A stretch of 36,681 nt of DNA, from the IMG/VR virus record IMGVR_UViG_3300009785_000042, positions 1 to 36,681 of that record; one strand, written 5' to 3'. Shown here piece by piece: positions 1 to 35,180 of the stretch (position 1 is the first letter of the stretch; every line of letters begins with the position of its first letter). A program made the position numbers and the translations under genes. Origin of the DNA: a virus. The notes below the pieces were generated by a model, which was given only the letters and a program-made list of their open reading frames with translations, was not told the origin of the DNA and searched no databases.

Positions 1-450
1 CAGTCATTCCAGTAGATCCTGAAGATCCAGTCATTCCTGTTTGACCGCTAGAACCTGGTACTCCAGCTTGTCCATCAAGACCAGTTTGTCCAGTAGCTCC
101 ACTCATTCCAGTAGCTCCACTCATTCCAGTAAGTCCTATAAGACCTTGTATTCCAGTTTGTCCAGTTTGTCCAGTAGCTCCGGACATTCCTGTGTTACCA
201 ACAGCTCCTTGAATTCCTTGCGGTCCAATAAGACCAGTTTGTCCAGTAGCTCCAGTGTTACCAGTACCGGCAGGTCCTTGATTTCCTTGCGGTCCAGTCA
301 TACCGGTTTCTCCAGCTCCTGTAATTCCAGTCATTCCTGTAGCTCCAGTATTACCACTAGCTCCTGTAAATCCAGCACCAGTCATTCCTGTAGAACCAGC
401 AGCTCCAGCAGGTCCAGGAGATCCTATTCCAGTAGGTCCAGTAGTTCCAG
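1..450 (-). repeat. Collagen-like Gly-X-Y coding repeat, distal block
   Basis: Short degenerate repeats of the type GGxCAxACxGG on the coding (minus) strand encode about 150 residues of Gly-X-Y, rich in G-A-T, G-M-T and G-Q-T triplets. The plus strand therefore shows recurrent 'ccagtagctccagt' units, which produce spurious Ser-rich frames on the plus strand. Confidence 0.85.
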
Positions 451-3350: not shown

Positions 3351-3916
3351 TTTGTCTTTAGTTTAAGCTCAGGAGTTTCTCTATCTAATTCCTTTGCAAG
3401 TTTTATATTTTCTTTATCATCATCAAAGAATGTTATATCATTAAATCCCATATCTATAAATCTCTTAAACGCTTGTTTTTTACGTTTAGCAATAGTATCT
3501 CCATTAAAACCTTGTTTAGGATCGTTAATTGCAAAGATATATTTAGGGTTAACATCTACACCGTGATGTATAAGAAAATCATATATAAGTTTAGAATTAT
3601 CTCTAGCTGTTACGATACCAACTCGTTTACCTTTTTTCATGGTTGCTTTAAGTATATTAAAGACCCAATCTATTATTTTTCCAGCTTTAAGTATTTTAGC
3701 GTTTTGAAAATCAGAAAAATCTAGTTCGTGATTTGGACTATTTTCATATTCGTTAAATTCTTTAGGTGATAACTCATAAGCTTTTCCAGTTTTATGATCT
3801 GTAACTTTTATCTTTGATTTAGTTACAACCAAAGTATCATCAACATCAAAAAGGTTTATTTTTTCGTATTTAACGCCTTCGTTTAAGAAGTCTTGATATG
3901 TAGGTAATTCTCTCAT
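3317..3916 (-). CDS. HAD-superfamily phosphatase with capsid-targeting-like N-terminus
   Basis: A 199-residue HAD phosphatase. Motif I is DVDDT at residues 24-28 (nucleophile Asp24, acid/base Asp26), motif II is Thr103 in IVTARD, a lysine cluster around 144-147 supplies motif III, and motif IV is FFDDD at 163-167. The arrangement resembles the phosphatase half of T4 polynucleotide kinase and related small phage HAD enzymes, so a nucleotide 3'-phosphatase or 5'-nucleotidase role is possible. Before the domain sits MRELPTYQDFLNEG, close to the T4 internal-protein targeting peptide with a predicted prohead-protease site after Glu13; the enzyme may be packaged in the head. The downstream deaminase overlaps its 3' end. 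The substrate is not known. Confidence 0.85.
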   Translation of the reverse strand: MRELPTYQDFLNEGVKYEKINLFDVDDTLVVTKSKIKVTDHKTGKAYELSPKEFNEYENSPNHELDFSDFQNAKILKAGKIIDWVFNILKATMKKGKRVGIVTARDNSKLIYDFLIHHGVDVNPKYIFAINDPKQGFNGDTIAKRKKQAFKRFIDMGFNDITFFDDDKENIKLAKELDRETPELKLKTKWIENKWIPKA

Positions 3917-4902: not shown

Positions 4903-5796
4903 TTAGAACTTCCCGTCAGAGTTACGGTATTTAACCGTTAATTTAGGAACATACACCATTTTGTGTTTGTTTCCGTCATCTTCAACTATACGTTTGATAC
5001 GTTCAGTGTTATCCCAATCACCAGGGAAACATTCTTTTCTTCTTGGAGCAGAAGATTTTTGTTCGTTCCAAGTTCTATACTTAATATAACCAACTTTACT
5101 CATATCCCAAGTAAGACCACTATGACATTGGCCACCTAGACCTAAATTATGATTATCATATTCAACTGCAGTTTTATCTGATTCTGGAAAGTACATATAA
5201 CTACCAACATCTCCACGAACACGTTTCTTTTTTGCTCTAGTCAATGCTAAAGCGGTTTCAGGGAATTGAGTATATACCTGAGCATGTGTTTTTAGATGAT
5301 CTTTACTCCAAGCATCATCGTGATCTAATCTCGCAAACAATTTAATGCCATCCTTTTTCATTTGTTTAATAGAATCATTTGCAACCGTGTTACCACCAGT
5401 CAAATGTACAACCTCTCCTTCATATTTTCCACGTTCACCAGGTTCCTTTCTGTTTTGTAAATGTAGTTTTCCTTGTGGGATTATAGATTTTGCCATTTTC
5501 TCTATATCTGGCCATTCATCTTCTGGATATCCATCACCCATTAAATAAACTTTATAATTATCAAAGGTTTGATTCTTTATAGACTCTAAAGATTCTTTAA
5601 GAACTTTTGGGGTAGTCATACTCCCTGATCTTCCTTGAACTCCTCCATCATCACCACCAATTTTATATGTAGTCATACATATACCAAACTTACATCCTTT
5701 ATCGCAATCTTCATTTAGTGCTTCGTTTATAACATCAAATGGAATTTGTGTATAGGTAAAGTCTTCTCCTAAAAAATCGTTGAATTTCTTAAACAT
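4903..5796 (-). CDS. GT-A glycosyltransferase (GT2-like) with capsid-targeting-like N-terminus
   Basis: A 297-residue protein. From residue 38 it resembles family 2 glycosyltransferases: a first strand with CMTTYK, a helix with LKESLESIKNQTFDNY (67-81), then YLMGDG (84-89), and the metal/nucleotide-binding LDHDD at 157-161 in the DxD position. A C-terminal Trp/Asp region (PGDWDNTERI) may bind acceptor. It would transfer a sugar from a nucleotide sugar to an unknown acceptor. The N-terminus MFKKFNDFLGED matches the internal-protein targeting pattern, with a possible protease site after Glu11 and another at LNE near residue 29. The preceding gene's stop overlaps its ATG (TAATG), and a weak hairpin follows. 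A virion-packaged glycosyltransferase would be unusual. Confidence 0.8.
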   Translation of the reverse strand: MFKKFNDFLGEDFTYTQIPFDVINEALNEDCDKGCKFGICMTTYKIGGDDGGVQGRSGSMTTPKVLKESLESIKNQTFDNYKVYLMGDGYPEDEWPDIEKMAKSIIPQGKLHLQNRKEPGERGKYEGEVVHLTGGNTVANDSIKQMKKDGIKLFARLDHDDAWSKDHLKTHAQVYTQFPETALALTRAKKKRVRGDVGSYMYFPESDKTAVEYDNHNLGLGGQCHSGLTWDMSKVGYIKYRTWNEQKSSAPRRKECFPGDWDNTERIKRIVEDDGNKHKMVYVPKLTVKYRNSDGKF

Positions 5797-6254
5797 TAGT
5801 ATTTAACTTCTTTCTTTCCGTTAGTTATACCACCCCATATATCTGTTCTTCCTAGATCTTCACCTTCTTCCCAACCTCCATAAGATTTGAAGGCCTTTTT
5901 AATAGCACTAACTATGTTTTTCTTTCCAAGTTTAGCAGAAAAACTATCCATCTTAGGCAAGTAAGGTCCGCCATACATACTATATTCGCCGGTTTGGTTT
6001 ATTACGATTTGTTCCATATCAGAATTAAGTCCGCTAATAACTAATTGAGCAGCATCCCATTGCATATGTCCACTTACCAATCCAATATCCGCAGCCATCA
6101 TGATTACAATGTTCTTTTCAGAATCTCCCATATCTTGAGCTTGAGATTTGAACATAGATCCACCATACGTAATAGTCATAGGTACATCTACTTTAATTTC
6201 GCCTTCATTAATTACGTTTTCATTAAGGAATTCCTTAAAATTATTTAGTTCCAT
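5796..6254 (-). CDS. Hypothetical capsid-targeted protein
   Basis: 152 residues. The first 17, MELNNFKEFLNENVINE, contain the F-x-x-F-L-N-E peptide and a second I-N-E site, both fitting the (L/I)xE rule of T4-type prohead proteases. The rest (a soluble alpha/beta-looking chain rich in Met and Gly, with VPMTITYGGSMF, NIVIMMAADIGLV and a Trp-rich tail) matches no family I know. It has its own GATATATAAT promoter box and is coupled to the glycosyltransferase through TAATG. Likely a head-internal protein; biochemical role unknown. Confidence 0.75.
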   Translation of the reverse strand: MELNNFKEFLNENVINEGEIKVDVPMTITYGGSMFKSQAQDMGDSEKNIVIMMAADIGLVSGHMQWDAAQLVISGLNSDMEQIVINQTGEYSMYGGPYLPKMDSFSAKLGKKNIVSAIKKAFKSYGGWEEGEDLGRTDIWGGITNGKKEVKY

Positions 6255-6273
6255 TTTGAATAGTTTTATTTTT

Positions 6274-6283
6274 ATTATATATC
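6274..6283 (-). promoter_or_regulatory. Promoter-like box GATATATAAT
   Basis: Same decamer and same 19-nt distance to the ATG (6254) as the box before the gene at 2785. It overlaps the stop of the upstream acetyltransferase gene. Both genes served are probable virion proteins, consistent with a late promoter. Confidence 0.45.
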
Positions 6284-6874
6284 TCTCGCAGGTATTCCAA
6301 CCACGATTGAATTTTCTGGTAAGTTTTTAGTAACAACTGCACCAGCACCGACTATACAATTATTACCTACGGATAATCCTGGTAATATCGTAGCGTTTGA
6401 ACCAATTCTGCAAGATTCTCCAATAGTAGATTTTCCTAAAATAGTAGCTCCTGGGCTTATTTCGCAATAATCACCTATTATTACATCATGAAAAATTTTA
6501 GCTCCATGATTAAGTAAAACTTGATTACCTATTTCTACACAAGGTTCTATTAAAACATCTCCTAATATAATACATCCATATCCAAATTTACAATGATGTC
6601 TATTAGATTTGCTTGATATTATAGATAAAGGTTTAAGTTCTGATAATTTTTTAGAAAAAGATTCTCTGTGTTCAGGATTTCCTAAACATATCGCGTAATG
6701 CGAATATAATGAAGGATCTAATATATTTGTAGAGTTATGACCAAAGTCATTAGTATCTTCATTAACATTATCATAAAACGTAAAGGAATACCGTTGATAT
6801 CGATCTTCGTTTAATGTTGATAAACATTGTTTAGCTAATCCATCAGCTCCAATTATTATAACTTTATTAGTCAT
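6275..6874 (-). CDS. PglD/NeuD-type left-handed beta-helix acetyltransferase
   Basis: A 199-residue protein with an N-terminal small Rossmann-like part (KVIIIGADGLAKQCL, residues 4-18) and a C-terminal hexapeptide-repeat beta helix from about residue 95, typical of PglD and NeuD, which acetylate the amino group of UDP-4-amino-sugars or sialic acid hydroxyls using acetyl-CoA. The expected catalytic His is at 129 in IFHDVIIGDYCEISPG, and the end VVGIPARDI is the usual family terminus. It directly follows a DegT-type aminotransferase gene with an 8-base overlap: the aminotransferase/acetyltransferase pair is the classical way to make an acetamido sugar. The acceptor here is not known. Confidence 0.87.
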   Translation of the reverse strand: MTNKVIIIGADGLAKQCLSTLNEDRYQRYSFTFYDNVNEDTNDFGHNSTNILDPSLYSHYAICLGNPEHRESFSKKLSELKPLSIISSKSNRHHCKFGYGCIILGDVLIEPCVEIGNQVLLNHGAKIFHDVIIGDYCEISPGATILGKSTIGESCRIGSNATILPGLSVGNNCIVGAGAVVTKNLPENSIVVGIPARDI

Positions 6875-7511
6875 CTCTATTTGCTTTAGTGTATATCTCG
6901 AATTTACTTAGATCTGGATATGGTAATTGTTGAGGTTTGTTTTTAACTTTAGTACCATCTGGGTTATAGAATTGTCCAATTAAAAGTAAGCCTCTTGCTG
7001 CTAATTCAGGCATCATATAAAAGTTCCATCCTAACATATCAAAATTATCATCATGGTATGAACATTCTCTACGTCCTGAATATCTTGCACGTTTGAACCA
7101 TAAATATGCTTCATAATCATCAGTAAGTATACAACCACCTTTACTAAGTTTGAATGTTTTATATGGTCCTGTAAATGAACAACACATGTGTGTACCAGGT
7201 TTGTACATTTCTGCAGTGAATAATAACGCTGCATCCCATACGTTAGTTGGTTTTAATTGATATGCACCTTTTAGGAACTTTCCTTTAACTGCTTCAAATT
7301 TTACCATTGCACCAGCATGAATAATTTCACACGGTACTGATGGATATGTTCTAGCAGGAATACTTATTTCGATTCCTTTTACTTTCTCATACATTAACGC
7401 TAGGAATAATCCGTTAGATTGATTATCTACAGTTACTGCATATTTTGCACCGGTATATTCTGCAATTTTTTCTTCGAATTCTTCGGTTACTTTATAAACT
7501 CCGCTTGCCAT
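6867..7511 (-). CDS. DegT/DnrJ/EryC1-type sugar aminotransferase, short form
   Basis: A PLP-dependent sugar aminotransferase of the DegT/DnrJ family. Seen: EEFEEKIAEYTGAKYAVTVD (10-29), TYPSVPCEIIHAGA (55-68), the PLP-phenolic Asp in VWDAA (Asp93) and the Schiff-base Lys118 in SFTGPYKTFKLSKGG. At 214 residues it lacks roughly the last 150 of a normal family member, which contains parts of the dimer and substrate site, so it may be a minimal or regulatory form, or work with a partner. I start it at the ATG at 7511, one base after the stop of the upstream gene (TAATATG), rather than at an upstream TTG (7565) that would overlap that gene by 53 bases. It overlaps the acetyltransferase by 8 bases. 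Confidence 0.8.
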   Translation of the reverse strand: MASGVYKVTEEFEEKIAEYTGAKYAVTVDNQSNGLFLALMYEKVKGIEISIPARTYPSVPCEIIHAGAMVKFEAVKGKFLKGAYQLKPTNVWDAALLFTAEMYKPGTHMCCSFTGPYKTFKLSKGGCILTDDYEAYLWFKRARYSGRRECSYHDDNFDMLGWNFYMMPELAARGLLLIGQFYNPDGTKVKNKPQQLPYPDLSKFEIYTKANRDD

Positions 7512-7512
7512 A

Positions 7513-8796
7513 TTAAAATAGTTTGGTTGATAGATTATATATCGTTGATTCGCAGTAGTCTGCAAATTTGAAATTTGGATACATTTTATTACTCAATGTG
7601 GTTTCAATCCATTCTCTCTGTTTGTGTAGGTAATCCTCACGATACTCGTTAGAACTTAGTTTAACGTATTGCGCAAATAAATCAAGTTCATTTTCAAAAT
7701 AAAAATCATCATCTCCAAATATAATTCTATTTTGATCACATGGTAAATAAATTAAGGATGGTACTCCGGCTACAGCACAATCATATATAGATTTAGCAAT
7801 ATAAGAATAATTATCTTTACCTTTACCGAAATGGATTACCGCCATTTGTTTATTTAGAAACTTATAATAATCATCTCCTTGAAAAGAATCTTCAATAAGT
7901 TCTATATTATCTTTATCTTGTATTGATGGAATATCAGTAGAACCAGGACCGAATATAACAGTAGGTATTTTATGTTCGTTTTTTCCGAAAATTTTCTTTA
8001 GAATCTTAGGTCTTTTTTCTGCAACACTACCTTTTAGGTATCCAGCAAAACATATTCTTTTATCGAAATCTTTATTACATTCAAACTTTAATCGCTCTAA
8101 ATTTTCATGATATCCAAATAGAATATCATCAGAAACATATAATACACGATCTAAACTTTCTTTAAGTTCATCAAATTGCATTAACCCAGGAACATCATTA
8201 TATATTACATTAGGAGCCCAATCATATATTTTATCAGTGCAGTTTGCAATCCAGTAAACATTATCATACTTTATTTGTGGCCATGCCTCAATCATTTTTA
8301 CTTTCTTTCCATTGAGTTCTACAAACTTTTTCCCAGATGGTAACTGAGTGCATCTATTAGTAACCATCTTTCTATAATCAAGATACTTATATTCGCTATC
8401 TGGCAATCTAAAGAATAGAGGTAAATTTAATTCATTCGTAACATAAGATGCAACAATATAACTCATCATACACCTAGGATCTAGCGAACCACCGAAAAAA
8501 TTATTTCTAAGCATATAAGAAAAGAAAGCAGAAAATCCTATATTTAATTTATTTAATTGTAAAGGATGGTCTATTCTAAGTATTTCCCAATCTACATGAT
8601 CTGCTAACATACTAACTTTAGTACGTAATTTAGATTCAATTATTTTTGTAACCGGAATAAATACAAATTTTGTATTCGGGTTTAATTCAGCAAATTTATT
8701 AAAGAATAAAAACTCAGATAAAAGTATCGAAGTATTAGTACCAGGACTAGTGTATAGAATTACTCCTATTGTGAATTTTGGATTTTTCTGATTCAT
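7513..8796 (-). CDS. Probable GT-B glycosyltransferase
   Basis: 427 residues, with no transmembrane segment. The N-terminal half begins with a Rossmann-like strand (FTIGVILYTSPGTNTS) and the C-terminal half contains ICFAGYLKGS (248-257), VIFGPGS (280-286) and SIYDCAVAGVPSLIYLP (337-353), which looks like the donor-site helix 'E-A-x-A-x-G-x-P-V-I' of GT-B enzymes, although the usual Glu is replaced. It would transfer a sugar from a nucleotide donor. Its ATG lies 50 bases inside the epimerase gene, so the two are tightly coupled, and the aminotransferase follows at once. Subfamily and acceptor are unclear. Confidence 0.65.
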   Translation of the reverse strand: MNQKNPKFTIGVILYTSPGTNTSILLSEFLFFNKFAELNPNTKFVFIPVTKIIESKLRTKVSMLADHVDWEILRIDHPLQLNKLNIGFSAFFSYMLRNNFFGGSLDPRCMMSYIVASYVTNELNLPLFFRLPDSEYKYLDYRKMVTNRCTQLPSGKKFVELNGKKVKMIEAWPQIKYDNVYWIANCTDKIYDWAPNVIYNDVPGLMQFDELKESLDRVLYVSDDILFGYHENLERLKFECNKDFDKRICFAGYLKGSVAEKRPKILKKIFGKNEHKIPTVIFGPGSTDIPSIQDKDNIELIEDSFQGDDYYKFLNKQMAVIHFGKGKDNYSYIAKSIYDCAVAGVPSLIYLPCDQNRIIFGDDDFYFENELDLFAQYVKLSSNEYREDYLHKQREWIETTLSNKMYPNFKFADYCESTIYNLSTKLF

Positions 8797-9862
8797 ATAT
8801 TTGCTTAATTATTTCATCTAACGAAATCGTTATCTCCCAAGATGGATAGTGTTCTTTGAATTTTTTTAGATCGCTGATATACCATTGATGATCTCCGCTC
8901 CTAGCCTCTTCCGAGACTGTAAAGTTTTTCCATATATCGTTTCCATCAATCTTTTGTAATTCATTTACTTTATATATCGCTTCGAGAATTGATGTATCGT
9001 TTCCTCTTCCACCACCAGCATTATATACCTCTCCTGGTTTAGGATCTTTATGATACTCCCAGAACATATTAACTAAATCCCATGAATGTATATTATCTCT
9101 AACTTGCTTTCCTTTATAACCAAATATAGTATATGGTTTTCCTGATACCATACATTTAATTAAATAAGATAAGAATCCATGAAGTTCAGCTCCTGCATGA
9201 TCAGGTCCAGTTAAGCAGCCACCTCTAAAAATTCCGATATTCATATTCCAATATCTTGCATATTCTTGACACATAATATCGGCTGCAACTTTCGATGCAC
9301 CAAATACTGAATGTTTACATTGATCAATACTCATTGTTTCATCTACACTCCCAGGATTAAACCCAGGATCGAGATATTCATATCTCCAATCGGTTTCTGC
9401 TAAAATTAAATTGTTTGGTTGATCTCCGTAAACTTTATTAGTTGATGTAAATATAAATGTTGCATCTGGGCAATTTAATCTAGTACATTCTAATAAATTT
9501 ACAGTACCGGTTGCATTAACACTAAAATCTGTTAATGGTTCTTTAGCAGCCCAATCGTGTGATGGTTGCGCTGCAGTATGAATTATCAATTTTATATTTT
9601 CTCCGTGATGTGAGAATAGGTTACGTAATTCTTCATAATTTCTGATATCTATATTATTAGGTTCATAATCAGGATAATCATTAACCAATGCATCGTTATT
9701 AGGTTTTGTTGAAGCTTCATCACCAAAGAAATAAGATCTCATATCATTATCAATACCGATAATTCGATAATCTTTTTCATGTAAGAATTTAACAGCCTGC
9801 GAACCGATAAGTCCAGCAGAACCTGTTACAATTGCTATTGGTTTTTTATAGTCTTGTTCCAT
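8747..9862 (-). CDS. NAD-dependent sugar epimerase/dehydratase (CDP-paratose 2-epimerase-like)
   Basis: A short-chain extended-SDR sugar-nucleotide enzyme, 371 residues. The NAD-binding GSAGLIGS is at 14-21, followed by the acidic Asp at the end of strand 2 (GIDND) and IIHTAAQPSHDWA (93-105). Catalytic region: the usual YxxxK reads F187-G-A-S-K191, so the tyrosine is Phe. Substrate-side motifs FRGGCLTGPDHAGAELHGF and FGYKGKQVRDNIHS resemble CDP-paratose/tyvelose 2-epimerases and related cyanobacterial proteins, where I recall the same F-G-A-S-K; the Phe may therefore be normal for the subgroup. It overlaps both neighbours (28 and 50 bases), placing it in the sugar operon. Confidence 0.87.
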   Translation of the reverse strand: MEQDYKKPIAIVTGSAGLIGSQAVKFLHEKDYRIIGIDNDMRSYFFGDEASTKPNNDALVNDYPDYEPNNIDIRNYEELRNLFSHHGENIKLIIHTAAQPSHDWAAKEPLTDFSVNATGTVNLLECTRLNCPDATFIFTSTNKVYGDQPNNLILAETDWRYEYLDPGFNPGSVDETMSIDQCKHSVFGASKVAADIMCQEYARYWNMNIGIFRGGCLTGPDHAGAELHGFLSYLIKCMVSGKPYTIFGYKGKQVRDNIHSWDLVNMFWEYHKDPKPGEVYNAGGGRGNDTSILEAIYKVNELQKIDGNDIWKNFTVSEEARSGDHQWYISDLKKFKEHYPSWEITISLDEIIKQIYESEKSKIHNRSNSIH

Positions 9863-10386
9863 AATTGTTTTTTAATAAAGTTTGTAGTTTGTTTTATATT
9901 ATTTTTAGATGTATCTATTGTACATATTGACGGAATTAAAGTGTTAGCACATTCTAATTCTATAATAGATTGGCCGAAAAGATTTTTTAATCTTGAATAA
10001 TCTTTTGCATCATATATGATTCTATCTTTAGGTCCACGTTTCATATAATCTAAATGGTCATTCCATAAGTAGAATAATTTAATATCATGAGATTCTATAA
10101 ATTCTGTTAGATATGTATTATCAAATGCTCGAGTTCTACCAAAAAATTTAGAGTAGACCATTTCACTTAAAATTGATCTATCTAAAATAAAGGTTTCATT
10201 TGGAAACGCTCTAAAGAAAGCATCGTATGAAAAGAATGTACCTTTATAAAATGATGTTAAATCACAACCATCTGGCATTTTTTCTTTGAGAGAAATAATA
10301 CGACCTAATCCGTTATCACACAGATCGTTTGCTATTGAGGTTTTACCTGTTCGAGATAAACCTTCTAAAATAATTAGTTTCGCCAT
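9835..10386 (-). CDS. Deoxynucleoside/dNMP kinase-like P-loop protein
   Basis: 183 residues, with a Walker A loop GLSRTGKTS at 9-17 and DRS at 69-71 followed by SEMVYSKFFG, the pattern of deoxynucleoside and thymidylate kinases (D/E-R-S near a substrate-binding region). It would phosphorylate a (deoxy)nucleoside or nucleoside monophosphate with ATP. In T4 a dNMP kinase (gp1) acts on hydroxymethyl-dCMP; a gp42-like hydroxymethylase gene two genes upstream makes the same role plausible here, but the sequence does not prove substrate. A CATATAAT box lies only 4 nt upstream of its ATG. It overlaps the epimerase by 28 bases. Confidence 0.75.
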   Translation of the reverse strand: MAKLIILEGLSRTGKTSIANDLCDNGLGRIISLKEKMPDGCDLTSFYKGTFFSYDAFFRAFPNETFILDRSILSEMVYSKFFGRTRAFDNTYLTEFIESHDIKLFYLWNDHLDYMKRGPKDRIIYDAKDYSRLKNLFGQSIIELECANTLIPSICTIDTSKNNIKQTTNFIKKQLWNKTIKNQ

Positions 10387-10390
10387 ATTT

Positions 10391-10398
10391 ATTATATG
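10391..10398 (-). promoter_or_regulatory. CATATAAT promoter box
   Basis: Minus-strand TCATATAATAAATATG: the CATATAAT octamer is four bases from the kinase ATG, so transcripts would be leaderless if it acts as a -10 element. Confidence 0.35.
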
Positions 10399-10419
10399 AT
10401 AACCAAGATGTTTTGTTTC

Positions 10420-11280
10420 TTATTGAGGACCGTAAAGTGTAGGTATGATATCTTGTATATTAGTAGTCATTCGATCCTCTTCTGGTACAGTAGCTATTAT
10501 TGTATCAACTAATCCTCTATATGATGAGTTTGTTTTTTCAATTTCAAATTCTTGTTTATTACTCGAAAAGAAAATCTTGCCATAACACTGACGATTATCA
10601 AAGTATTGGGGTATTCCCTTTTTTCTTAAATTATCAGAGAAGATTACATATTCCATTCTTCCTGTATTATCGTCGTAAGTTATTTTATCTAGTACTTCAT
10701 GTGAAATAAAGTATGTACAATGTACCACATCAACTTGTATAAGACCGGATATACTCATATCCCATATAGGATAGTAATGATCGGTTGCAGCAAAGTAACC
10801 ATTATCATCAGTAGCTTTATGAAAATTTGCATAGTATTCTCCATCTCTAATTACTCTTAAATATGGAGCAACAATAGGTAAATTATGTGCTCTGATAGAT
10901 GATATTGTATTAGGTAAACATATATTATCTGCGTCTGCTATAAAATAATCTGCACCTTCAGCTAAAGCAAAGTCTATAGATTCCTGTCTTAATTTTCCAA
11001 GAATTTTATATCGATCAGTAGTCCAATCATGATTACTTCGATCTACTAATGTTTTATCAATAGACGAATCGTCGAATACCATCTTATATTTCCAATTCCA
11101 TTTTTTATAGAAATCTAATAAGATCTGGGCTGTGTTATCGTTATTATCATTTGTACGTATATAAAATATAGTCTTAGATGATAAAGCGTCTTGAGCTAAT
11201 AAGCTATCTAAATATAACGGTAATATGTGGCCACAGGATTTTGCTAATATGGCAATTACTAATGGTCTTTCTGATTTCAT
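10420..11280 (-). CDS. GT-A glycosyltransferase (GT25/PLOD-like)
   Basis: 286 residues. The N-terminus VIAILAKSCGHILPLYLDSL (8-27) and the metal-binding DAD at 116-118 inside GADYFIADADNICLP are characteristic of GT-A enzymes related to the collagen lysine glycosyltransferase group and Anp1-type proteins. No signal peptide or membrane helix is seen, so it is cytoplasmic. It overlaps the next upstream glycosyltransferase gene by 4 bases (ATGA), so the two probably act in one pathway. It could glycosylate DNA, virion protein (the window's collagen-like fibre is one candidate) or lipid; the sequence alone does not decide. Confidence 0.8.
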   Translation of the reverse strand: MKSERPLVIAILAKSCGHILPLYLDSLLAQDALSSKTIFYIRTNDNNDNTAQILLDFYKKWNWKYKMVFDDSSIDKTLVDRSNHDWTTDRYKILGKLRQESIDFALAEGADYFIADADNICLPNTISSIRAHNLPIVAPYLRVIRDGEYYANFHKATDDNGYFAATDHYYPIWDMSISGLIQVDVVHCTYFISHEVLDKITYDDNTGRMEYVIFSDNLRKKGIPQYFDNRQCYGKIFFSSNKQEFEIEKTNSSYRGLVDTIIATVPEEDRMTTNIQDIIPTLYGPQ

Positions 11281-12581
11281 ATAATTGTTTCTATGTTTTT
11301 AATTGTAAGAGAATCAATATCATTTTGTATTCTATGAGAAGCCATTTCATATGATTCATATGCATAACCAAGTCCGAAACAAACTTCGCCTAATCGATCG
11401 AATTCTTTACGATCTTCATAAAATGTTTCTAACGCAATTTTTAAGCATTGTGCAATTTGTTCAATATCTGGTTTATGAGTTTTATCTTTATCAACACCAA
11501 CTAAAAATGGATAAACACCATCTTTAATTTTATCAAATTTAGTTTTGTAATTATTTACGTTAGGTACTACTAAAACGTTTTTTGCTAACATAGCCTCACA
11601 ATGAGTAACACCACCATGAACTTCAGTAACAAATAGATTACATGATATATGTGCACGATTAATAAATTCTAAATAATTTTTTCTTGTAAACGATTCGTTG
11701 TTAGATAAAACATTTACATGACCTCTAGATAAATCATTAATTTCTTCAAGTTGTTCTTCTGTACATTTTCTAGTAGGATTTAACATTACTGCATCAAATT
11801 CTAAATCTGTTATTTCTGATAGTCTTCCTATTGATTCGGCAAATGAATCATAGTTTGTATATCGATTAGCAGTATCAGAAATTCTATTTCCAAAATAAAT
11901 AGTAGGAGTATCAAACGAATCTTCCGTATGATTATCCATAATTTCTTGTGCATGGCAACCAACACCCCATACAGAAGTTTTAGATATATTATCTCGCGAC
12001 TTAAACATTACATCGTAAGCCTCAAGAGCTTCGTTCATTCCAGCTTCACATTGAAATATCGCGATATCAGAATTCATAAAGGATTCCATTTGTCTTTCGT
12101 AATATCTAACTCGTTTATCTACTTTATTAGCTATCGGAGAATCTAAAAAATAGTTTGTCGACATTATAGGAACGTTTTTTCCGATTGATTGAAAGAATGC
12201 ATTCCAATTTTTAGTTAATGTATTTTCATCGTTAATCATAACGTCAATATCATCAAATTGATATTTAATAGATTCATAATGATTCATATCAAATGCATAC
12301 CTACTTGTTATTGGACTTATTGGTATATGTTCTCTCATGAATGATATTCTATCATGATACTTAGAATCAAAAAATTCGTAAAGATTGTCAACATCTAAAC
12401 AATCATCTTCGAATGGTAATTTAATAAGGAATTCATAATCATCTCGTTTTTCTAACAAAGATGAAATAATTCCTACTGCTATATTTGTACAAGCGTCGTT
12501 TCTTAATAGCCACATAGGCCCAATATCTGTATTGGTAAAATTAGAAACTTGAACCGCGTAAAAAATTCTAGTTTTATTCAT
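11277..12581 (-). CDS. GT-B glycosyltransferase (GT4-like)
   Basis: 434 residues, soluble. The C-terminal donor-binding domain has VHGGVTHCEAMLAKNVLVVP (321-340), the family-4 style motif with Glu329 that contacts the sugar nucleotide. The N-terminal half (RIFYAVQVSN.., VMINDENTL, IAIFQCEAG) fits the acceptor domain. It lies between the hydroxymethylase-like gene and the GT-A gene, one base from the former and 4 bases overlapping the latter, so the three are one operon. If the cytosines of this phage are hydroxymethylated, this is one of three candidates to glycosylate them. Confidence 0.8.
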   Translation of the reverse strand: MNKTRIFYAVQVSNFTNTDIGPMWLLRNDACTNIAVGIISSLLEKRDDYEFLIKLPFEDDCLDVDNLYEFFDSKYHDRISFMREHIPISPITSRYAFDMNHYESIKYQFDDIDVMINDENTLTKNWNAFFQSIGKNVPIMSTNYFLDSPIANKVDKRVRYYERQMESFMNSDIAIFQCEAGMNEALEAYDVMFKSRDNISKTSVWGVGCHAQEIMDNHTEDSFDTPTIYFGNRISDTANRYTNYDSFAESIGRLSEITDLEFDAVMLNPTRKCTEEQLEEINDLSRGHVNVLSNNESFTRKNYLEFINRAHISCNLFVTEVHGGVTHCEAMLAKNVLVVPNVNNYKTKFDKIKDGVYPFLVGVDKDKTHKPDIEQIAQCLKIALETFYEDRKEFDRLGEVCFGLGYAYESYEMASHRIQNDIDSLTIKNIETII

Positions 12582-13901: not shown

Positions 13902-15428
13902 TTATTTCATTTTTAAGCGCTGTCCTATATGTAATCCTAGACGCTTTCCATATTCATAATCAGATGGGAAGTGCAATCTCATTCTCATTCTACTAGTTGC
14001 AATTTCATCGGATAACTTAAATAGATCATCTGATAAGTTTGGATATTTATATGATAAGGCTGTAGCAATTGCATATGGTTGAACTGTATGTCCAGATGGA
14101 TATGACGGAGTATGAGCAGTTTCTGAATCAGATGCTTTAATATCTATTTTATGATGTTTAGCTAATTGATCAGGTCTAGGTCTATTATAGTAATTTTTTA
14201 ACATTCCAACCATAGATTTTATTCTATAACTATAATCATGAATTTCTTTTTCTGTAACATCAAATCCCTTAGATTTTAAGAATTTTGAAAATGTATTACT
14301 GAAATTACGATCTTGTTCTAAATCAAATTTACTAGGTTGTGGTAAACTACTTAAATATAATAATTCTCGTTTAGTTTCCTCAGAAGAGTTTTTTGGTGGA
14401 TCATATAATGGTAATTCTTCTAACTTCAGTTCAGGCTTATTATGTTTTCTCATTTTATTAGAAAAAACTAATGAATCTATTCCAGTCAATCCTTTATCAA
14501 TTGGCGGTAAATCGTATGGATGTTCTTCTGTTATTTTTTTAAGATCATCCATTCTTGCACCATAATTCTTATCAATTGGAGTATTATCATTATCGCATTT
14601 ATGACACTTGTACATATCATCACCAGCATCTTCAAGAGACCAAGACCATCCGCAATTATCACAAACAATATCTTTTGTCTCATCAATCACACCAATTTCA
14701 CCTGCCTCATCGTCATCTTCTTCATAATACATTGCATCTTGATATCCTTGTTTAGATTTATCTACCGTTTGTGTAAATACTCGCTGACCAGCAACTTGAT
14801 TATCTCCAAGACCACCTTCCTTAACAGACCGTCCAGTAGAAATACTACTTCCTGGTGTTTTCTTATTTTTAGATACAAATGCAACGTTACTTCCAGCAAC
14901 CTGTGCTGCTGATTTATTTATTATAGACGGATTGTAAGGATCTTCATCATCCTCATCTGCATAATCTAATTTATTAGTTTCCTGTCCTTTTGTGTTTGTA
15001 GAAGCTCCGCCAACAGCGTTAGGATAAAAAATACCAGAAGCTTCATCGGTATAAGAATAGTTATCTTCTGTTGCAGCTACCGTTATTAAATCTTTAATAT
15101 GGATTTGATATATTTCATCACCAGTATTTTTATCATCGTAATAACCTAAATCTGGATCCATTCCCTTATCACCTCGCTGAGTACCGTAGGTAGATCCCTT
15201 TAACGAATCATAGAATTGAACGGTAGCTATTGTTTTATCTTTATTAAATGAATTCACAGTACCTACACCTACCCATTGTCTATTTTTATCTAGGACGTTA
15301 TCGCCTATCTTTAACTTTCCAGAATTTTTAGGTATTTTATTTATAGGATTTCTACCTAATGCTAAATTAGGTGTATCAGCAATAGGTTTGCCTTCATTAA
15401 GAAATTCATCGTAAGATTTGATAGCCAT
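13902..15428 (-). CDS. Capsid-targeted multidomain protein: SH3/KOW-like, zinc ribbon, C-terminal PAP2 phosphatase
   Basis: 508 residues in clear blocks. Residues 1-13 MAIKSYDEFLNEG carry the internal-protein targeting/protease pattern. Residues 38-118 look like a small beta-barrel (KIGDNVLDKNRQWVGVGTV, ending in IKDLITVA). Residues 120-250 are low-complexity, acidic and probably disordered. A zinc ribbon CDNCGWSW...CHKC spans 256-278. The C-terminus (about 336-508) is a complete PAP2 phosphatase: K411..RPRP (416-419), PSYPSGH (441-447) and S479-R480-x5-H486-x3-D490. Such an enzyme would be delivered with the phage DNA if the N-terminus works as in T4. It abuts its short paralogue without a gap (stop and ATG adjacent). 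The combination of ribbon and PAP2 is odd. Confidence 0.82.
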   Translation of the reverse strand: MAIKSYDEFLNEGKPIADTPNLALGRNPINKIPKNSGKLKIGDNVLDKNRQWVGVGTVNSFNKDKTIATVQFYDSLKGSTYGTQRGDKGMDPDLGYYDDKNTGDEIYQIHIKDLITVAATEDNYSYTDEASGIFYPNAVGGASTNTKGQETNKLDYADEDDEDPYNPSIINKSAAQVAGSNVAFVSKNKKTPGSSISTGRSVKEGGLGDNQVAGQRVFTQTVDKSKQGYQDAMYYEEDDDEAGEIGVIDETKDIVCDNCGWSWSLEDAGDDMYKCHKCDNDNTPIDKNYGARMDDLKKITEEHPYDLPPIDKGLTGIDSLVFSNKMRKHNKPELKLEELPLYDPPKNSSEETKRELLYLSSLPQPSKFDLEQDRNFSNTFSKFLKSKGFDVTEKEIHDYSYRIKSMVGMLKNYYNRPRPDQLAKHHKIDIKASDSETAHTPSYPSGHTVQPYAIATALSYKYPNLSDDLFKLSDEIATSRMRMRLHFPSDYEYGKRLGLHIGQRLKMK

Positions 15429-15443
15429 AATAGATGAATTATT

Positions 15444-16421
15444 TTAGATGTATTTTGCTAAATGAGTTTGAAATAGTTTTCCTAATTCTTCAGGTGCATT
15501 ATCATAAAATTCTGCAGCAACTGAATTTCTTCCAGGATTGTAAGGCCCTAATTCTATTGAGTGACGTTGATCTGTACTAGCACTTATAGCAATATAACCA
15601 GTACCCGGTCCAGATGTTCTTTTTCTAATTCCAACTGTTAAGAAATGTAATTTACCTTTTTTAGAATTACCGAAGAAAACTCCGATTGCTTTATATTCGG
15701 TTTCTCCTGTACCTACACCCTTTTTAGATGCAGCGTTTGGAGATGCCATAAGTTCTCTATAATTAGGTTCTAATTCTGTGATTTGTTTTGTCACGTTTTT
15801 AGGCAATCCATCTTGTACAATTTTTGCTAGTTCTTTAGAAATTTTAGATGGATTTCCGTTAGCATCATTAAATTCTAATTCGTTAATAGGAAGTATCAAA
15901 GTTTCTTGAACGCTATTTATAAAGGATCCGAAAGATTCTGGTAAGTAAGTAGATTCATTTGCACCAAAAACAATTAATTCATCGCCATTGTTTATAGAAA
16001 GAAGGTATTTAGCTAAGTCCTTTCGTTTTTTATCATTCCATTTTAGTATTTCTGCGATGGTGTGCGATATTGCTGATACTTCACCATCATTTGGTTTATG
16101 GTTTTTAACATAATCATTTATTGCTGCAGTAGCCTTTTTAATATCTGATTTGTTAAGACCTTCATTAACCGATTCTGCAAGTCCAATGATTTCGGATTGA
16201 TAAATCTCTAAACCACTTGTTAATTCATATTTGAAACTAGATAATGTTTTAGTTTTTTTCTTAATAACACCAGTATCAGTATTTTTAGATTTGCTAATAG
16301 CATTAGCGTATTTACCAACACCACCTTTATGATCTAATTGATATTCGATCTTCTGGCCTTTTTTGTATAATGGCTTGTTTGATTCGTTTAAGAATTCATT
16401 AAAGTTTTCCAATTCTTTCAT
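15444..16421 (-). CDS. Hypothetical capsid-targeted protein
   Basis: 325 residues beginning MKELENFNEFLNES, the clearest copy of the shared N-terminal peptide, with predicted cleavage after Glu13. Next is a short KGQKIEYQLDHKGGVGKY segment, similar in style to the beta-barrel start of the neighbouring PAP2 fusion, then a mixed alpha/beta body with GELHFLTVGIRKRT-like strands (about 255-275). No enzyme motif is recognised. It is adjacent to another protein with the same N-terminus, and its ATG overlaps the upstream gene by 4 bases. Likely an internal head protein ejected with DNA; function unknown. Confidence 0.78.
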   Translation of the reverse strand: MKELENFNEFLNESNKPLYKKGQKIEYQLDHKGGVGKYANAISKSKNTDTGVIKKKTKTLSSFKYELTSGLEIYQSEIIGLAESVNEGLNKSDIKKATAAINDYVKNHKPNDGEVSAISHTIAEILKWNDKKRKDLAKYLLSINNGDELIVFGANESTYLPESFGSFINSVQETLILPINELEFNDANGNPSKISKELAKIVQDGLPKNVTKQITELEPNYRELMASPNAASKKGVGTGETEYKAIGVFFGNSKKGKLHFLTVGIRKRTSGPGTGYIAISASTDQRHSIELGPYNPGRNSVAAEFYDNAPEELGKLFQTHLAKYI

Positions 16422-21116: not shown

Positions 21117-21130
21117 TTAGAAACGGTATT
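21117..21130. repeat. 14-bp inverted repeat, right arm
   Basis: TTAGAAACGGTATT on the plus strand; on the transcript (minus) AATACCGTTTCTAA begins right after the tmRNA 3' end. It can pair with the copy just before the terminator, closing a ~400-nt loop around the coiled-coil gene. Confidence 0.7.
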
Positions 21131-21477
21131 TGTGGAGATGGTGGGAATCGAACCCACGTCCATAATGTATCCACAATAGATGTTTTACAGCTTAGGCTAA
21201 GTTTTTCAAAACTTCCAAAACTAATATATGTTATTAAACCGTTATTGTTAGGTGGCTTGTGGAGTTATATTATTTCCATTCATTATACACACATGAGTCG
21301 TTTCGTTTTGCATCTAGTAATTTACTAACTCTCGTAAACTCAATTACCTGATGTGCAATTCATCACCTAACTAGGCTGCCATTGCTAACTCAACGTTGCC
21401 GTTTGAGATTGATGTAGGTCATCACCCGTTGCTGAATCTAAAGCTTCTTTCATAATGTCAAAAGCCGTGTCATCCCC
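21131..21477 (-). ncRNA. ssrA: Transfer-messenger RNA (tmRNA)
   Basis: tmRNA rescues stalled ribosomes and tags the unfinished peptide for proteolysis. The mature 5' end GGGGATG (plus 21471-21477) pairs with CATCTCC near the 3' end (21134-21140) in a 7-bp acceptor stem with one G-U. A T-arm GTGGG-TTCGATT-CCCAC lies at 21141-21157, and the 5' side continues with a D-loop-like segment. The tag frame reads G-N-V-E-L-A-M-A-A followed by TAG (21371-21400), close to the bacterial ..LAA ending; the exact resume codon is not certain. The 3' CCA is not fully encoded (A-C-A-A follows the stem). Length about 345 nt is normal. It is a standalone one-piece form. A CATATAAT box is 20 nt upstream. Confidence 0.93.
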
Positions 21478-25186: not shown

Positions 25187-25879
25187 ATGAAACTAAACAC
25201 TTTCACAGAATTCTTAAATGAATCTAACAATCTAAACGAAGATTCTAAAGTAAAGGATCGTATAAAGGAACTAGCTGCTGATCCTAAGAATCAGAAAGCA
25301 ATGGGTTCAACTAATACTAAAAATTTAGAATACGCATTCCAAGCACTGTTTAACCGAGGATATGGTGCTGCAAAAACTAATTGGGGTGCTGTTCATCCAA
25401 CAATAAAAGCTATTGGAAAGGGTGTTGCTGCTTATAATGCATGGGGTCATGCAAGATTAAATGCATTCATCAATAAAGCAAAGGCATATAATACAAGCGA
25501 TAAAGATGTTGCAGATTGGCTAAAAGGTAAAGGTGATAAACCAACATTAACTAATGAATCAACTAACGAAGCAAAGAAACCAACAGTTGGTCATACTAGA
25601 AAACGTAAACATTACAAAGACGATCCACCGGATATTGGACTTTATTCAAAAGGAGGAAGAGACGCAATTAAAGGTACTGGTTATGCTGATAAAGCAAAGG
25701 CAGAATTTACAATTAAGGAACTTGACAAATTAATGAAACAAAAGGAAAGAACATGGGCTATGTCAATTGCAACAACTATGGAAAGCCGAGCTAAAAAACA
25801 TAAACATCAAACTCAAGGAATGAGAGATGCAATGAAAGTTTTTAGAACATGGATTGACAAAAACAAATTACAAAAATGA
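25187..25879 (+). CDS. Hypothetical capsid-targeted protein
   Basis: 230 residues starting MKLNTFTEFLNESNNLNED: the shared F-x-x-F-L-N-E peptide, predicted cleavage after Glu12, with a second L-N-E nearby. The body is basic, with many Lys, Ala and Trp residues, and falls into two parts: a helical N-half (residues 20-120) and a C-half with KHYKDDPPDIGLYSKGGRDA and a final helix with KKHKHQTQGMRDAMKVFRTW. That last pattern recurs, as far as I recall, in unnamed marine phage proteins. It overlaps the next gene by 4 bases. A basic internal protein could bind packaged DNA. Confidence 0.78.
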   Translation: MKLNTFTEFLNESNNLNEDSKVKDRIKELAADPKNQKAMGSTNTKNLEYAFQALFNRGYGAAKTNWGAVHPTIKAIGKGVAAYNAWGHARLNAFINKAKAYNTSDKDVADWLKGKGDKPTLTNESTNEAKKPTVGHTRKRKHYKDDPPDIGLYSKGGRDAIKGTGYADKAKAEFTIKELDKLMKQKERTWAMSIATTMESRAKKHKHQTQGMRDAMKVFRTWIDKNKLQK

Positions 25880-31029: not shown

Positions 31030-32097
31030 TTACAGTATAATGTAATTTATTCCTACTGAAAAGTTGTGCCAGCTTCTATTCCAGTATTTATTATATTTAC
31101 CTTCTAGAAATACACCTAAGTGCTTGTTAAATTTATATCCGAATATCAAACCACCTGAATAATCTAACCATTGTCCTTCATTAAATGCATGGTAAGAAAA
31201 TTCATCTCCAGAATTATAATGATAAGGCATTAAATTACCCCATGAATGCAACCAAAAATCTTTTGTGTAATGATAGTAATCAAATCCTATAACTAACGAA
31301 TGATTCCATTGTGCAGGTATTTCGCTTCGTTTTCTTTCGGTATAGTCAGATAATACATTTGGTATAACAACTGCTTCCCATACCTCAGTATTCTCAGCAA
31401 TTAAATTTCCTGATGGATTGTAATATCCAACTCCTCCACTCCCGTCAAAGTCCATAGAATATCCTTCTTGAATTGCCAAATTGGTATAATGTAAATTACC
31501 ATTAGATAATAACCATTCTTCTAAAGGATCGTATCCATAAGGTTCTGATACCCTTTGAACTGCTCCTATATTTAATGATAGCTTTCTACCAATTTTATAC
31601 CTATATCTTTGAGAAGCTTCTGTGTATTTAATATCAGCAAAGCCATCTTGAAGATACTCCATTTTAATAATCCAATCATCAGCAACATATCGTAAGAAAT
31701 GATGTTGATCTAAATAATTAATCCCTTGTATTCTTCGATAATCTGCTTCGAATAAAAATTCAAATCCACTTATTTTTCCAATAGTAGCAGCATCGCTAAA
31801 TGAATTTTCAGTTCCGTTATAAAAAGTGTTTGCTCTATTCTCATAACCTAACCTTGCGATCTTTCTTACACCTAATGTAAGAGAATAATCAAATGGTGTT
31901 TTAACAACATTAGTTTCTAAACCATTTGTAACTGAATACACATCTACGTCTGATAATGAATTTGCTCCGTTAAAGGCTCCATAGAAAGTTGAATACTTAA
32001 AGGTCTTCTTTAAGGTTTTTCTAAATTCGTTTTGTTTTTCTTCCTGTCCAAATGATATTAATGGAATAAGAAGAAATAGTATTAAAAGTTTTTTCAT
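31030..32097 (-). CDS. Outer-membrane beta-barrel protein
   Basis: 355 residues with a clean signal peptide (KKLLILFLLIPLISFGQ, cleavage after Gln18) and about 300 residues of alternating strands with Tyr/Trp girdles, ending SWHNFSVGINYIIL as outer-membrane barrels do. Asn/Tyr-rich loops are typical of flavobacterial outer-membrane proteins. Function unknown; receptor mimic, porin or superinfection exclusion are possible. Its ATG overlaps the stop of the T9SS surface protein by 4 bases (ATGA), so they are made together. Confidence 0.75.
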   Translation of the reverse strand: MKKLLILFLLIPLISFGQEEKQNEFRKTLKKTFKYSTFYGAFNGANSLSDVDVYSVTNGLETNVVKTPFDYSLTLGVRKIARLGYENRANTFYNGTENSFSDAATIGKISGFEFLFEADYRRIQGINYLDQHHFLRYVADDWIIKMEYLQDGFADIKYTEASQRYRYKIGRKLSLNIGAVQRVSEPYGYDPLEEWLLSNGNLHYTNLAIQEGYSMDFDGSGGVGYYNPSGNLIAENTEVWEAVVIPNVLSDYTERKRSEIPAQWNHSLVIGFDYYHYTKDFWLHSWGNLMPYHYNSGDEFSYHAFNEGQWLDYSGGLIFGYKFNKHLGVFLEGKYNKYWNRSWHNFSVGINYIIL

Positions 32098-35000
32098 TGT
32101 TTAATAATTCTTTTGTTAAGTAACATTTTATTATATGTAATTGTTAAGTTGTAAACTCCGTTAGAGAACTCTGCTATATTTATTCGTTTATCTGTGCCTT
32201 CATAAACTAAAGCACCAGTCATATTATAGATCTTGATTTCTATATCTAAATGAGTGTCTATATTTAATATCGATGTAGTAGGATTCGGATAAACTATAAT
32301 GGTATTTGAATTGATTTCATCTATAGCAGTTGGCCAGCCTAATTGACAATAGTTATACATTGATTGGCAACTAGCATCCCAATTGTTTGTACAACAATAA
32401 TCATCAACATCGATTACCCATGCATAACATCCATCGTTTAACCAATAAGGTATTCCAGGTCCACCATAACAACCAGCATTATATAAACATGATAATGAAT
32501 CTGATACATTAGCAGATGAATTATAATTGTATGCTGCAACGTCGGTACATCCACTAACGATTTCTATACATGAATTATCGTCATAACATGCATTTGAGTT
32601 ATAATTTAATGCATATATATCTGTACATCCAGATATGTAGCAGCAACTGTTATCTAACGTATTTGCTAATGGATCAAAGTTAAATGCTGTATTATCTGAG
32701 CATCCGTATACGAAAGGTACACATGTTGAATTATCTGTATTAGCAATTGGATCGTAATTAAACGAAGTTGAATCGGTACATCCATATATAAAAGGAATAC
32801 AATTACCTGAGGATGTGTTTGCCGTTGCATTATAATTCCACATGGTAATATCCATACAACCAATAATTACTGGAACGCATGTATTATCGTCGGTATTAGC
32901 ATTAACATCATAATTAAAAGCAGCAGGATCTGTACATCCTAAAATGATAGCTATACATGTATTATCATCTGTATTTGCTAAAGGATTGTAATTGAATTGA
33001 GTTGAATCTGTACATCCATAAATGTAAGGTATACATGTATTATCATCATCTGTTGCAATTGGATCAAAGTTAATAGATAACGGATCTGTACAACCAAGTA
33101 TTTCAAGATCATCACAAATTCCATCTCCATCAATGTCACTTAAACAAGAACCTAAACAATCATAGTATTGTATTGGATATGTACAACCGCCATTATCTAC
33201 ATTTGCGATAACATCGTAATTACAAGCTATAATATCTGTACATCCTAGATATATGCAACTTCCGTCGCTAGTATTCGCAGAAGAATTATAGTTATATGCA
33301 GTTGAATCCATGCATCCATTAACAAGTGCAATGCATGATAGATCATCGAGAGTAGCCAATGAATCATAATTAAATGCTAAAGGATTTGTACAACCTAATA
33401 TAATAGGCATACATGATAAGTCATCGGTATTTGCTAACGGGTTATAATTAAGAGATGTCGAATCCATACATCCTAAAACAATAGGAATACAAAAGTTTCC
33501 ACAATCAGGAGTACCTGAATATCTATATGGGAATTGAAATAAAGGATCTGTCCATGGATTTGTTCCACCTTCAATTAACGTATCTCCATCTGGGCTAACG
33601 AATTTGAATCCACATTGTTCGGCAGTTGAAGCTGAATTACCTTGAGTAAAGAATAAAACTTCTACTGGATATTCAGAACTTAATGAAAGTGTAATTGTTT
33701 TTTCAAAGGCATCTATAGGATCCATAGTAAAAGGACCATATGAACTACCGTTTTGAACAACTCCAATCCAAGATCCGAACCATCCATCGCCAGCACCATC
33801 AGTTAATATAAATTCGTAATCACAGTTAAGAACGTTTGCCATAGTATTAGATGATGGATCGTAATTTATCGAGTTAATTTCTGTACATCCTAATACAATA
33901 AGAGTAGTACATGAACTATCATCAATAGTAGCTAAAGGATCGAATTCTAAATAATTCTCATCCATACATCCAGAAATAACATTCGTAATACATGGAGAAA
34001 TTATATGAGTAATTGTCGTGTCTGTTCCGAAATCAGCATTACCAGGTTGTATTGATAATAAAGTATCTCCACATAATGTTTCTACTACAACACTGCCGTC
34101 AACACCACCATAACAAGATCCACACATTCCATCTCCAAAGTTATCATATAATGTAAAAATAATTTCAGTACCATCTGCAATACAAGTTTCTGTAACTACC
34201 GGAACTCCAGTTTGAGTATACATAGGAGATGATTGTAAAATTGTACCTGATGTATCGGTAATCTCCCACGAAGTTTCTCCTACATAAGTGTCTGGTGTAA
34301 GTATAACTAAAACATTAGTTTGTCCATTTGCACAATTAGCTGCAGGGTAAGTACAAGTACCATCAGGAGTATTAGCCCATGGATTCCAATTTAATGCAAG
34401 AGAATCCATACAACCAATAATACAGTTATCAGTAAAGATTTCTAATGTATCTGTATAAGAACCATCACCTAATTCTGCTATAAAATAATATGTAGTGTAT
34501 GGATCAGCATTAGAAAATGTAATACCAGTGTTTGACCAATTTGCAGGGTAAGGATACCAATCGATTCCTAGATCATCAGGATTGTCTTTTGCTTTTGTAT
34601 ATGCAACAACATTACAACTTTGATTTGAACCAGGATCCCATGTATAATTAACGACTGGTCCATTAAGTGTACAATAAGTTTCTACATAAAAAGTATCAAG
34701 TCCTATACATGGTGCATAAATACAAGATCCATCATCATAAGCAGCGTATCCATTATAATTAGTTGCAAGTGAATCTAAACAACCTCCTGTCGGTGGAGCA
34801 CAAGGAGCAATCGTTAAAGTTTCTGTATATAATGTTCCGAAATCACCAGCAACAAATGCTAGAGTATCTTGACAGTCATTTTGAATTAAGAACCAACCAT
34901 CGGTTCCACCAAATAGACTAGCACCTAAACCATCTCCAAAAATGTCGTTAACATTAAGGACATAAGTGCCAGGATCTAAAGTTATTGTGGTATCTAAAAG

Positions 35001-35180
35001 TGAATTCAGTATATAATTAGAATCGCTTTCTATTACAGCAGTATTGGTTGAATCTAATAATTCCCAGTTAATTTCTGATGGATAATTATCAGATAAGTAT
35101 TGAATGTTTATCCAAGAAGATTGTGAAGATGCATTTAACGATAAAAGTAGGGTTAACGAGACCAAAAAGTTTTTTAACAT
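32094..35180 (-). CDS. T9SS-exported surface protein with about 16 GCTD-type Cys repeats
   Basis: 1028 residues, the longest complete gene here. A signal peptide (residues 1-20, LVSLTLLLSLNASSQ) is followed by ~110 residues, then about 16 copies of a 20-26-residue repeat (G-C-T/M-D-x-x-A-x-N-Y-x-x-x-A-N-x-x-D-x-S-C) interrupted by two inserts (about 275-395 and 455-560), then a Cys-rich GCYGGPG...CCTNNWDASC segment, and finally a T9SS type A sorting domain (963-1028: VYPNPTTSILNI.., IYNMTGALV, GVYNLTI..NKRIIKQ). In Bacteroidetes such proteins are exported by the type IX system and usually attached to the cell surface. One repeat insert is DxDGDGICDD, calcium-binding-like. Unusual in a phage. 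Confidence 0.85.
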   Translation of the reverse strand: MLKNFLVSLTLLLSLNASSQSSWINIQYLSDNYPSEINWELLDSTNTAVIESDSNYILNSLLDTTITLDPGTYVLNVNDIFGDGLGASLFGGTDGWFLIQNDCQDTLAFVAGDFGTLYTETLTIAPCAPPTGGCLDSLATNYNGYAAYDDGSCIYAPCIGLDTFYVETYCTLNGPVVNYTWDPGSNQSCNVVAYTKAKDNPDDLGIDWYPYPANWSNTGITFSNADPYTTYYFIAELGDGSYTDTLEIFTDNCIIGCMDSLALNWNPWANTPDGTCTYPAANCANGQTNVLVILTPDTYVGETSWEITDTSGTILQSSPMYTQTGVPVVTETCIADGTEIIFTLYDNFGDGMCGSCYGGVDGSVVVETLCGDTLLSIQPGNADFGTDTTITHIISPCITNVISGCMDENYLEFDPLATIDDSSCTTLIVLGCTEINSINYDPSSNTMANVLNCDYEFILTDGAGDGWFGSWIGVVQNGSSYGPFTMDPIDAFEKTITLSLSSEYPVEVLFFTQGNSASTAEQCGFKFVSPDGDTLIEGGTNPWTDPLFQFPYRYSGTPDCGNFCIPIVLGCMDSTSLNYNPLANTDDLSCMPIILGCTNPLAFNYDSLATLDDLSCIALVNGCMDSTAYNYNSSANTSDGSCIYLGCTDIIACNYDVIANVDNGGCTYPIQYYDCLGSCLSDIDGDGICDDLEILGCTDPLSINFDPIATDDDNTCIPYIYGCTDSTQFNYNPLANTDDNTCIAIILGCTDPAAFNYDVNANTDDNTCVPVIIGCMDITMWNYNATANTSSGNCIPFIYGCTDSTSFNYDPIANTDNSTCVPFVYGCSDNTAFNFDPLANTLDNSCCYISGCTDIYALNYNSNACYDDNSCIEIVSGCTDVAAYNYNSSANVSDSLSCLYNAGCYGGPGIPYWLNDGCYAWVIDVDDYCCTNNWDASCQSMYNYCQLGWPTAIDEINSNTIIVYPNPTTSILNIDTHLDIEIKIYNMTGALVYEGTDKRINIAEFSNGVYNLTITYNKMLLNKRIIKQ
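32470..34784 (-). repeat. GCTD-type repeat array (coding)
   Basis: About 16 tandem, partly diverged units with paired Cys, each roughly 22 residues, for example GCTDPAAFNYDVNANTDDNT followed by a Cys. At DNA level the minus strand shows recurrent 'ggatgtacaga' units. The most uniform run is residues 560-900. Highly similar units suggest recent expansion or recombination. Confidence 0.8.

Follow-up and report, generated by a model that had tools for sequence, protein, structure and literature searches.

Phage genes with type A sorting domains of the type IX secretion system (T9SS) were described in 2020 in Cryophage, which was proposed to use the T9SS of its host and possibly to exclude other phages by means of this cargo (PMC7468147). 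Cryophage carries three enzyme-like cargos (endoglucanase, GH39 and PA14) that vary between strains. In the same way, phage ORFs combining a T9SS sorting domain with BACON domains were reported in crAss-like cluster 2 (PMC6949934). How Bacteroidota phages cross the outer membrane is little understood. A survey of spanins found some of these phages to be spanin-less and considered that an outer-membrane protein could serve as o-spanin (PMC6139136), and another survey of Bacteroidota phages reported unimolecular spanins only (PMC12596118).

The DNA analysed here, called the window, corresponds to a virus record of 36,681 bp in IMG/VR. It encodes a putative T9SS substrate, T, next to three further genes, P, I and X (Table 1). 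In contrast to Cryophage, a single Cys-repeat protein is found as a rule per phage contig, obligately with P, I and X and near lysis genes. The crAss-like proteins share the sorting domain with T but possess BACON domains, and neither a Cys array nor partner genes have been described for them. No account of the T-P-I-X cassette was found in the open literature searched. The cassette and its linkage to lysis genes appear to be new, whereas phage-encoded T9SS cargo was already known.

Table 1. Features of the window (nucleotide positions; residues for the parts of T)
Feature	Position	Strand	Basis or remark
T, putative T9SS type A substrate, 1028 aa	32094..35180	(-)	ORF
T signal peptide	residues 1-20		
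T beta-sandwich domain chain	residues about 21-560		AF2 model, mean pLDDT 74
T Cys-repeat array, 26-residue unit	residues about 570-895		earlier copies at 256, 404, 431
T conserved Cys module	residues 894-950		
T9SS type A sorting domain of T	residues 963-1028; 32097..32294	(-)	TIGR04183
P, predicted outer-membrane beta-barrel with signal peptide, 355 aa	31030..32097	(-)	AF2 pLDDT 74, Foldseek
I, single membrane helix and acidic coiled coil, 97 aa	30699..30992	(-)	alignments
X, signal peptide and thioredoxin fold with CGPC deleted, 118 aa	30338..30694	(-)	PF00085, profile vs PDB
Genes with N-terminal motif F/Y-x-[EDK]-F-L-[NG]-E	3317-3916, 4903-5796, 5796-6254, 13902-15428, 15444-16421, 25187-25879		
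Phage-encoded tmRNA	21130-21477	(-)	Rfam RF00023, 72 bits
Second secreted barrel-like outer-membrane protein, 136 aa	21912-22322	(-)	PF13505, below cut-off
Collagen-like Gly-x-Thr repeat protein	2-2233	(-)	PF01391, 89 bits; runs off contig end
Sugar-nucleotide epimerase-, acyltransferase-, aminotransferase- and glycosyltransferase-like gene run	4903-12581		translations only

The putative T9SS substrate and its partner genes

An initial annotation had placed the T reading frame exactly where it is found, and had credited its product with a signal peptide, about 16 Cys repeats and a complete type A sorting domain. The N-terminus, MLKNFLVSLTLLLSLNASSQ, is indeed a Bacteroidota-type Sec signal peptide. 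In a simple scan, a strongly hydrophobic N-terminal segment was present in 149 of 155 T homologues compared with 38% of control ORFs, and a Q-type cleavage site in 141 of the 155. The sorting domain is complete as well, since T matches the full TIGR04183 model at 37.3 bits with hmmscan and 42.1 bits in a genome search (cut-off 23) and PF18962 at 41.4 bits (cut-off 27). TIGR04183 was also matched by all 43 viral T homologues examined, which removes one objection foreseen in the annotation, namely that phage homologues might lack this domain. T therefore has the two marks of a T9SS substrate, a sorting domain above the curated cut-off and a Sec signal peptide, and these features support the prediction that it is designed to reach the host surface by way of the T9SS. 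Of note, full-length SprA was found in two metagenome-assembled genomes (MAGs) that hold cassette contigs (G001 and G002), which fits a T9SS-bearing host without proving which host it is; in G003 there was none.

The Cys array likewise stands, but with 15 repeats rather than about 16. T contains 59 Cys, and the repeats, which are of the GC[TM]D type and follow the pattern GC[TM/S][DEN], are mostly spaced by 26 residues. In the AlphaFold model (mean pLDDT 74), beta domains are followed by the Cys array and then by the sorting domain. Foldseek returned only generic FnIII/Ig-type matches for T, which leaves the beta domains without a name. T homologues share a mean identity of 49%; the Cys module just ahead of the sorting domain is the most conserved region (mean majority 0.82) and the outer half the least conserved (0.42-0.46). 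The annotation had suggested a comparison with host proteins. GCTD-repeat surface proteins of Bacteroidota, for example those at two host loci (L111 and L112), share with T the repeat type and CC..WD Cys modules, but their similarity to T is weak and P, I and X are lacking there.

The start codon of P overlaps the stop codon of T by 4 bp (ATGA), as it does in about 38 other loci. The P model shows barrel strands and has as its best PDB match the porin NanC (Foldseek E 3e-6); it also resembles the viral protein A0A516LKJ4 (TM 0.67). A sequence search of the PDB gave no match for P. P resembles PorV and PorP-SprF, outer-membrane barrels that serve T9SS substrates, in being a barrel, but its fold is nearest to NanC/KdgM-type barrels. 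Its assignment to PorV, PorP-SprF or a known porin was rejected, as none of the 63 P members scanned matched a Pfam or NCBIfam family. A lipobox-like motif occurs in 39 of 176 P N-termini (for example L016:12850-13974), which suggests that some members of the family may carry a lipid.

In I, a short N-terminal tail is followed by one membrane helix, a Pro-containing linker and the acidic coiled coil. The family is very conserved (30-39 members aligned), and its predicted topology is N-in with a periplasmic C-terminus. P and I show a mean identity of 66-68% across many phages and represent protein families absent from all curated libraries searched, where no named family was found for either of them and I had no confident family match. 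X scores 23.9 bits against PF00085 (cut-off 23.5), and its profile aligns with PDB thioredoxins at E 1.6e-10 with a gap exactly at CGPC. It has the fold without the CxxC and is hence thioredoxin-like only; without CGPC, ordinary oxidoreductase activity is impossible for X. That it might escort the Cys-rich T is a guess.

The cassette is like the Rz/Rz1 two-component spanins in having a predicted single-pass inner-membrane coiled-coil protein, an outer-membrane partner and linkage to holin and endolysin (PMC6139136). It differs from them in that the outer-membrane partner is a barrel and not a lipoprotein, and in that the T9SS substrate and the thioredoxin-fold protein come in addition. I has the N-terminal transmembrane helix and periplasmic coiled coil of a two-component spanin, its topology being read from sequence, but P, as a predicted barrel, is not the outer-membrane lipoprotein that such a spanin has for a partner, and for that reason membership among the spanins is not claimed.

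Distribution of the cassette and neighbouring lysis genes

The phage setting described in the initial annotation was found again, with PhoH, DNA ligase, ATPase/helicase and further phage families on the same contig. A protein scan of IMG/VR found T on 26 viral contigs of up to 231 kb. The major capsid gene is of the T4 gp23 type in eight of the cassette records tested, and in eight others a different capsid protein, PHROG 13704, is encoded; no record examined carried both. Among 84,980 bacterial and archaeal species searched, P was present in four MAG contigs, three of which carry the remaining cassette genes, the fourth match being a short end fragment. Within the class searched, one of 395 genomes contained P, and the contig concerned also exists as an IMG/VR record.

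When the neighbourhoods of 41 loci were clustered, T, P, I and X were the only four near-universal genes. The viral collection was then scanned separately with P, I and X, seeds chosen to lower bias in the co-occurrence test, which yielded at least 595, 563 and 526 confirmed relatives, respectively. Among the matches listed, and counting loci flanked on each side by 7.5 kb or more, some of which share a contig, all four genes occurred together in 86 of 87 (P seed), 88 of 91 (I seed) and 87 of 90 loci (X seed). T-P-I-X is an obligate four-gene cassette. Accordingly, of the proposal in the annotation that a phage surface protein uses the host T9SS, the phage gene and the predicted export design hold, but T is not a lone protein.

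P falls into at least 131 clusters at 90% identity, of which 59 with 5 kb flanks were taken as distinct loci. Among these matches listed, the cassette genes lie on one strand in 59/59, in the orders TPIX (26), PIXT (20), IXTP (9) and four minor variants, the three main orders being rotations of a single one. The contigs come from hundreds of uncultured marine viruses, which represent two or more capsid backgrounds. A search of 50,697 annotated phages gave no homologue for T, P or I, apart from one chance match, and for X only thioredoxin matches at chance level. In the P tree the capsid lineages are not cleanly separated, which suggests that the cassette may have spread horizontally between them; nevertheless, the strongly supported branches do not force such an exchange.

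Two further observations were made. Proteins of about 2,900-3,100 aa are encoded directly upstream of PIXT or IXTP cassettes (L084, L018, L124, L200 and L163). In addition, ORFs with a T9SS-like sorting domain lie at about position 10000 in two metagenomic phages of 635-642 kb (L120, LR756502; L121, LR745206), with no P, I or X within 20 kb around the match.

A holin or endolysin gene was found within 4 kb of the cassette in 40 of the 59 distinct loci among the matches listed. The families counted were holin PHROG 3427, amidase or other endolysin PHROGs 1493 and 33083, and M15-type endolysin PHROG 894. Their density per 100 kb was 12.7 at 0-2 kb and 4.7 at 2-4 kb from the cassette and zero at 4-8 kb (59 distinct loci listed), in a control built on families first met near the cassette and so somewhat biased to short distances, chiefly for M15. 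All 42 nearby lysis genes lie on the cassette strand. Since the lysis genes belong to several families and the capsid backgrounds vary, the link looks like a functional association rather than one frozen, inherited neighbourhood. No gene of the tested families was recognised next to the cassette in the window, nor in 19 of the 59 loci, some of which lie near head genes. A lipoprotein-like ORF was present within 5 kb in only 5 of the 59 loci, so that the cassette seldom has a usual o-spanin or u-spanin close to it. In a few loci the cassette is accompanied by an Rz-like candidate (c33, weak PHROG 1152 match).

Possible roles of the cassette

The preferred reading, to which a probability of roughly 45% is given, is that T-P-I-X forms a late, lysis-linked exit module that spans the envelope and borrows the host T9SS. 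I would sit in the inner membrane with its coiled coil reaching into the periplasm, where X would act as a redox-dead escort or linker. P would hold or guide T as a barrel in the outer membrane. T would be pushed through the T9SS translocon (SprA), lose its sorting domain by cleavage and stay on the surface, docked to A-LPS and/or P by the conserved Cys module. The four proteins would thus form a chain from the inner membrane to the cell surface, acting with the neighbouring holin and endolysin when the phage leaves its host. Most likely they would stand in for the missing spanins, in that they would open or remodel the outer membrane together with the surface layer. The invariable sorting domain, the obligate co-occurrence, the nearby lysis genes, the i-spanin topology predicted for I and the scarcity of lipoprotein ORFs of the o-spanin or u-spanin type all argue for this role. 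On the contrary, a surface protein of 1000 residues would be costly if the role were purely that of a spanin, an Rz-like candidate exists besides the cassette in a few loci, and the window is among the loci where no tested lysis family adjoins it. Moreover, host range genes and morons, too, are found beside lysis genes, which counts against an exit role; lysis genes are not always clustered in T4-like phages. That the coiled coil of I, X, P and T make up a four-part exit machine with which Bacteroidota phages would open the outer envelope, a new kind of spanin replacement that recruits the host T9SS, is a narrower and more doubtful proposal. The cassette is a concrete candidate for outer-membrane passage and, if the reading is true, it would be a clear case of viruses using type IX secretion in a conserved system.

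The initial annotation had named superinfection blocking, holding cells together and help in the adsorption of progeny as possible roles. Because T belongs to an obligate cassette found in the vicinity of holin and endolysin genes, an exit role is at least as likely as superinfection blocking or cell adhesion. The best alternative is that T, exported late via the T9SS with P, I and X as helpers, coats the cell and blocks receptors, either against incoming phages (superinfection exclusion) or for the benefit of released progeny (debris masking like that of T5 Llp). In T, beta-sandwich domains are strung together into a long surface protein, whose outer half varies as if tracking receptors, in contrast to the conserved membrane-near Cys module; the late position suits debris masking, and such a role was also put forward for the T9SS cargo of Cryophage (PMC7468147). 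Nevertheless, exclusion genes are usually patchy and fast-evolving, unlike four inseparable genes of which P and I are so well conserved, and an inner-membrane coiled-coil protein would be superfluous, so masking is considered possible but rather unlikely.

It is improbable that T serves to keep infected cells together, or on particles or algae, so that progeny reach new hosts. The adhesin-like build, the Cys-repeat array and the host proteins with the same repeats would suit this, but it leaves P, I and X unexplained, as well as the clustering with lysis genes. Equally improbable is a lysis timing sensor in which T and P would perceive surface conditions or other phages and signal via X and I to the holin. 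Its purpose would be comparable to T4 lysis inhibition, its parts would span the envelope with I as a single-pass periplasmic protein, and holin genes are immediate neighbours in many loci; nevertheless, the neighbouring lysis families are several and different, and contact with the holin is hypothetical. That T, and perhaps P, ends up on the particle is highly unlikely: in the lineage whose portal is PHROG 6547 and whose capsid is PHROG 13704, some loci do have the cassette between portal and capsid genes, but virions assemble in the cytoplasm, from which signal peptides, barrel and sorting domain would remove T and P. Finally, host DNA or a chimeric contig, the other objection raised in the annotation, was rejected and has a negligible chance of being correct. 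The hallmarks of T are all bacterial in origin and hosts have related Cys-repeat proteins, but hundreds of viral contigs carry the four genes together, some of them along with one or the other capsid gene, and P is almost absent from the 395 genomes of the class that were searched.

Other features of the window

A shared N-terminal motif, F/Y-x-[EDK]-F-L-[NG]-E (for example MKLNTFTEFLNES), opens six otherwise unrelated proteins among the 52 genes of the window. In about 1000 genes of related loci there was no N-terminal case and one internal match. The motif resembles the capsid-targeting sequence of T4 internal proteins, and the six proteins may be enzymes packaged in the capsid. The phage also encodes a tmRNA, whose predicted tag, AKRNDSCVYNEWK, is unusual in being without the usual ALAA-type degradation end. 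The window also encodes a second barrel-like outer-membrane protein, predicted to be secreted. The run of sugar-nucleotide epimerase-like and related genes suggests, from the translations, a possible capacity for glycan remodelling, and the collagen-like protein at the contig end is probably a fibre.
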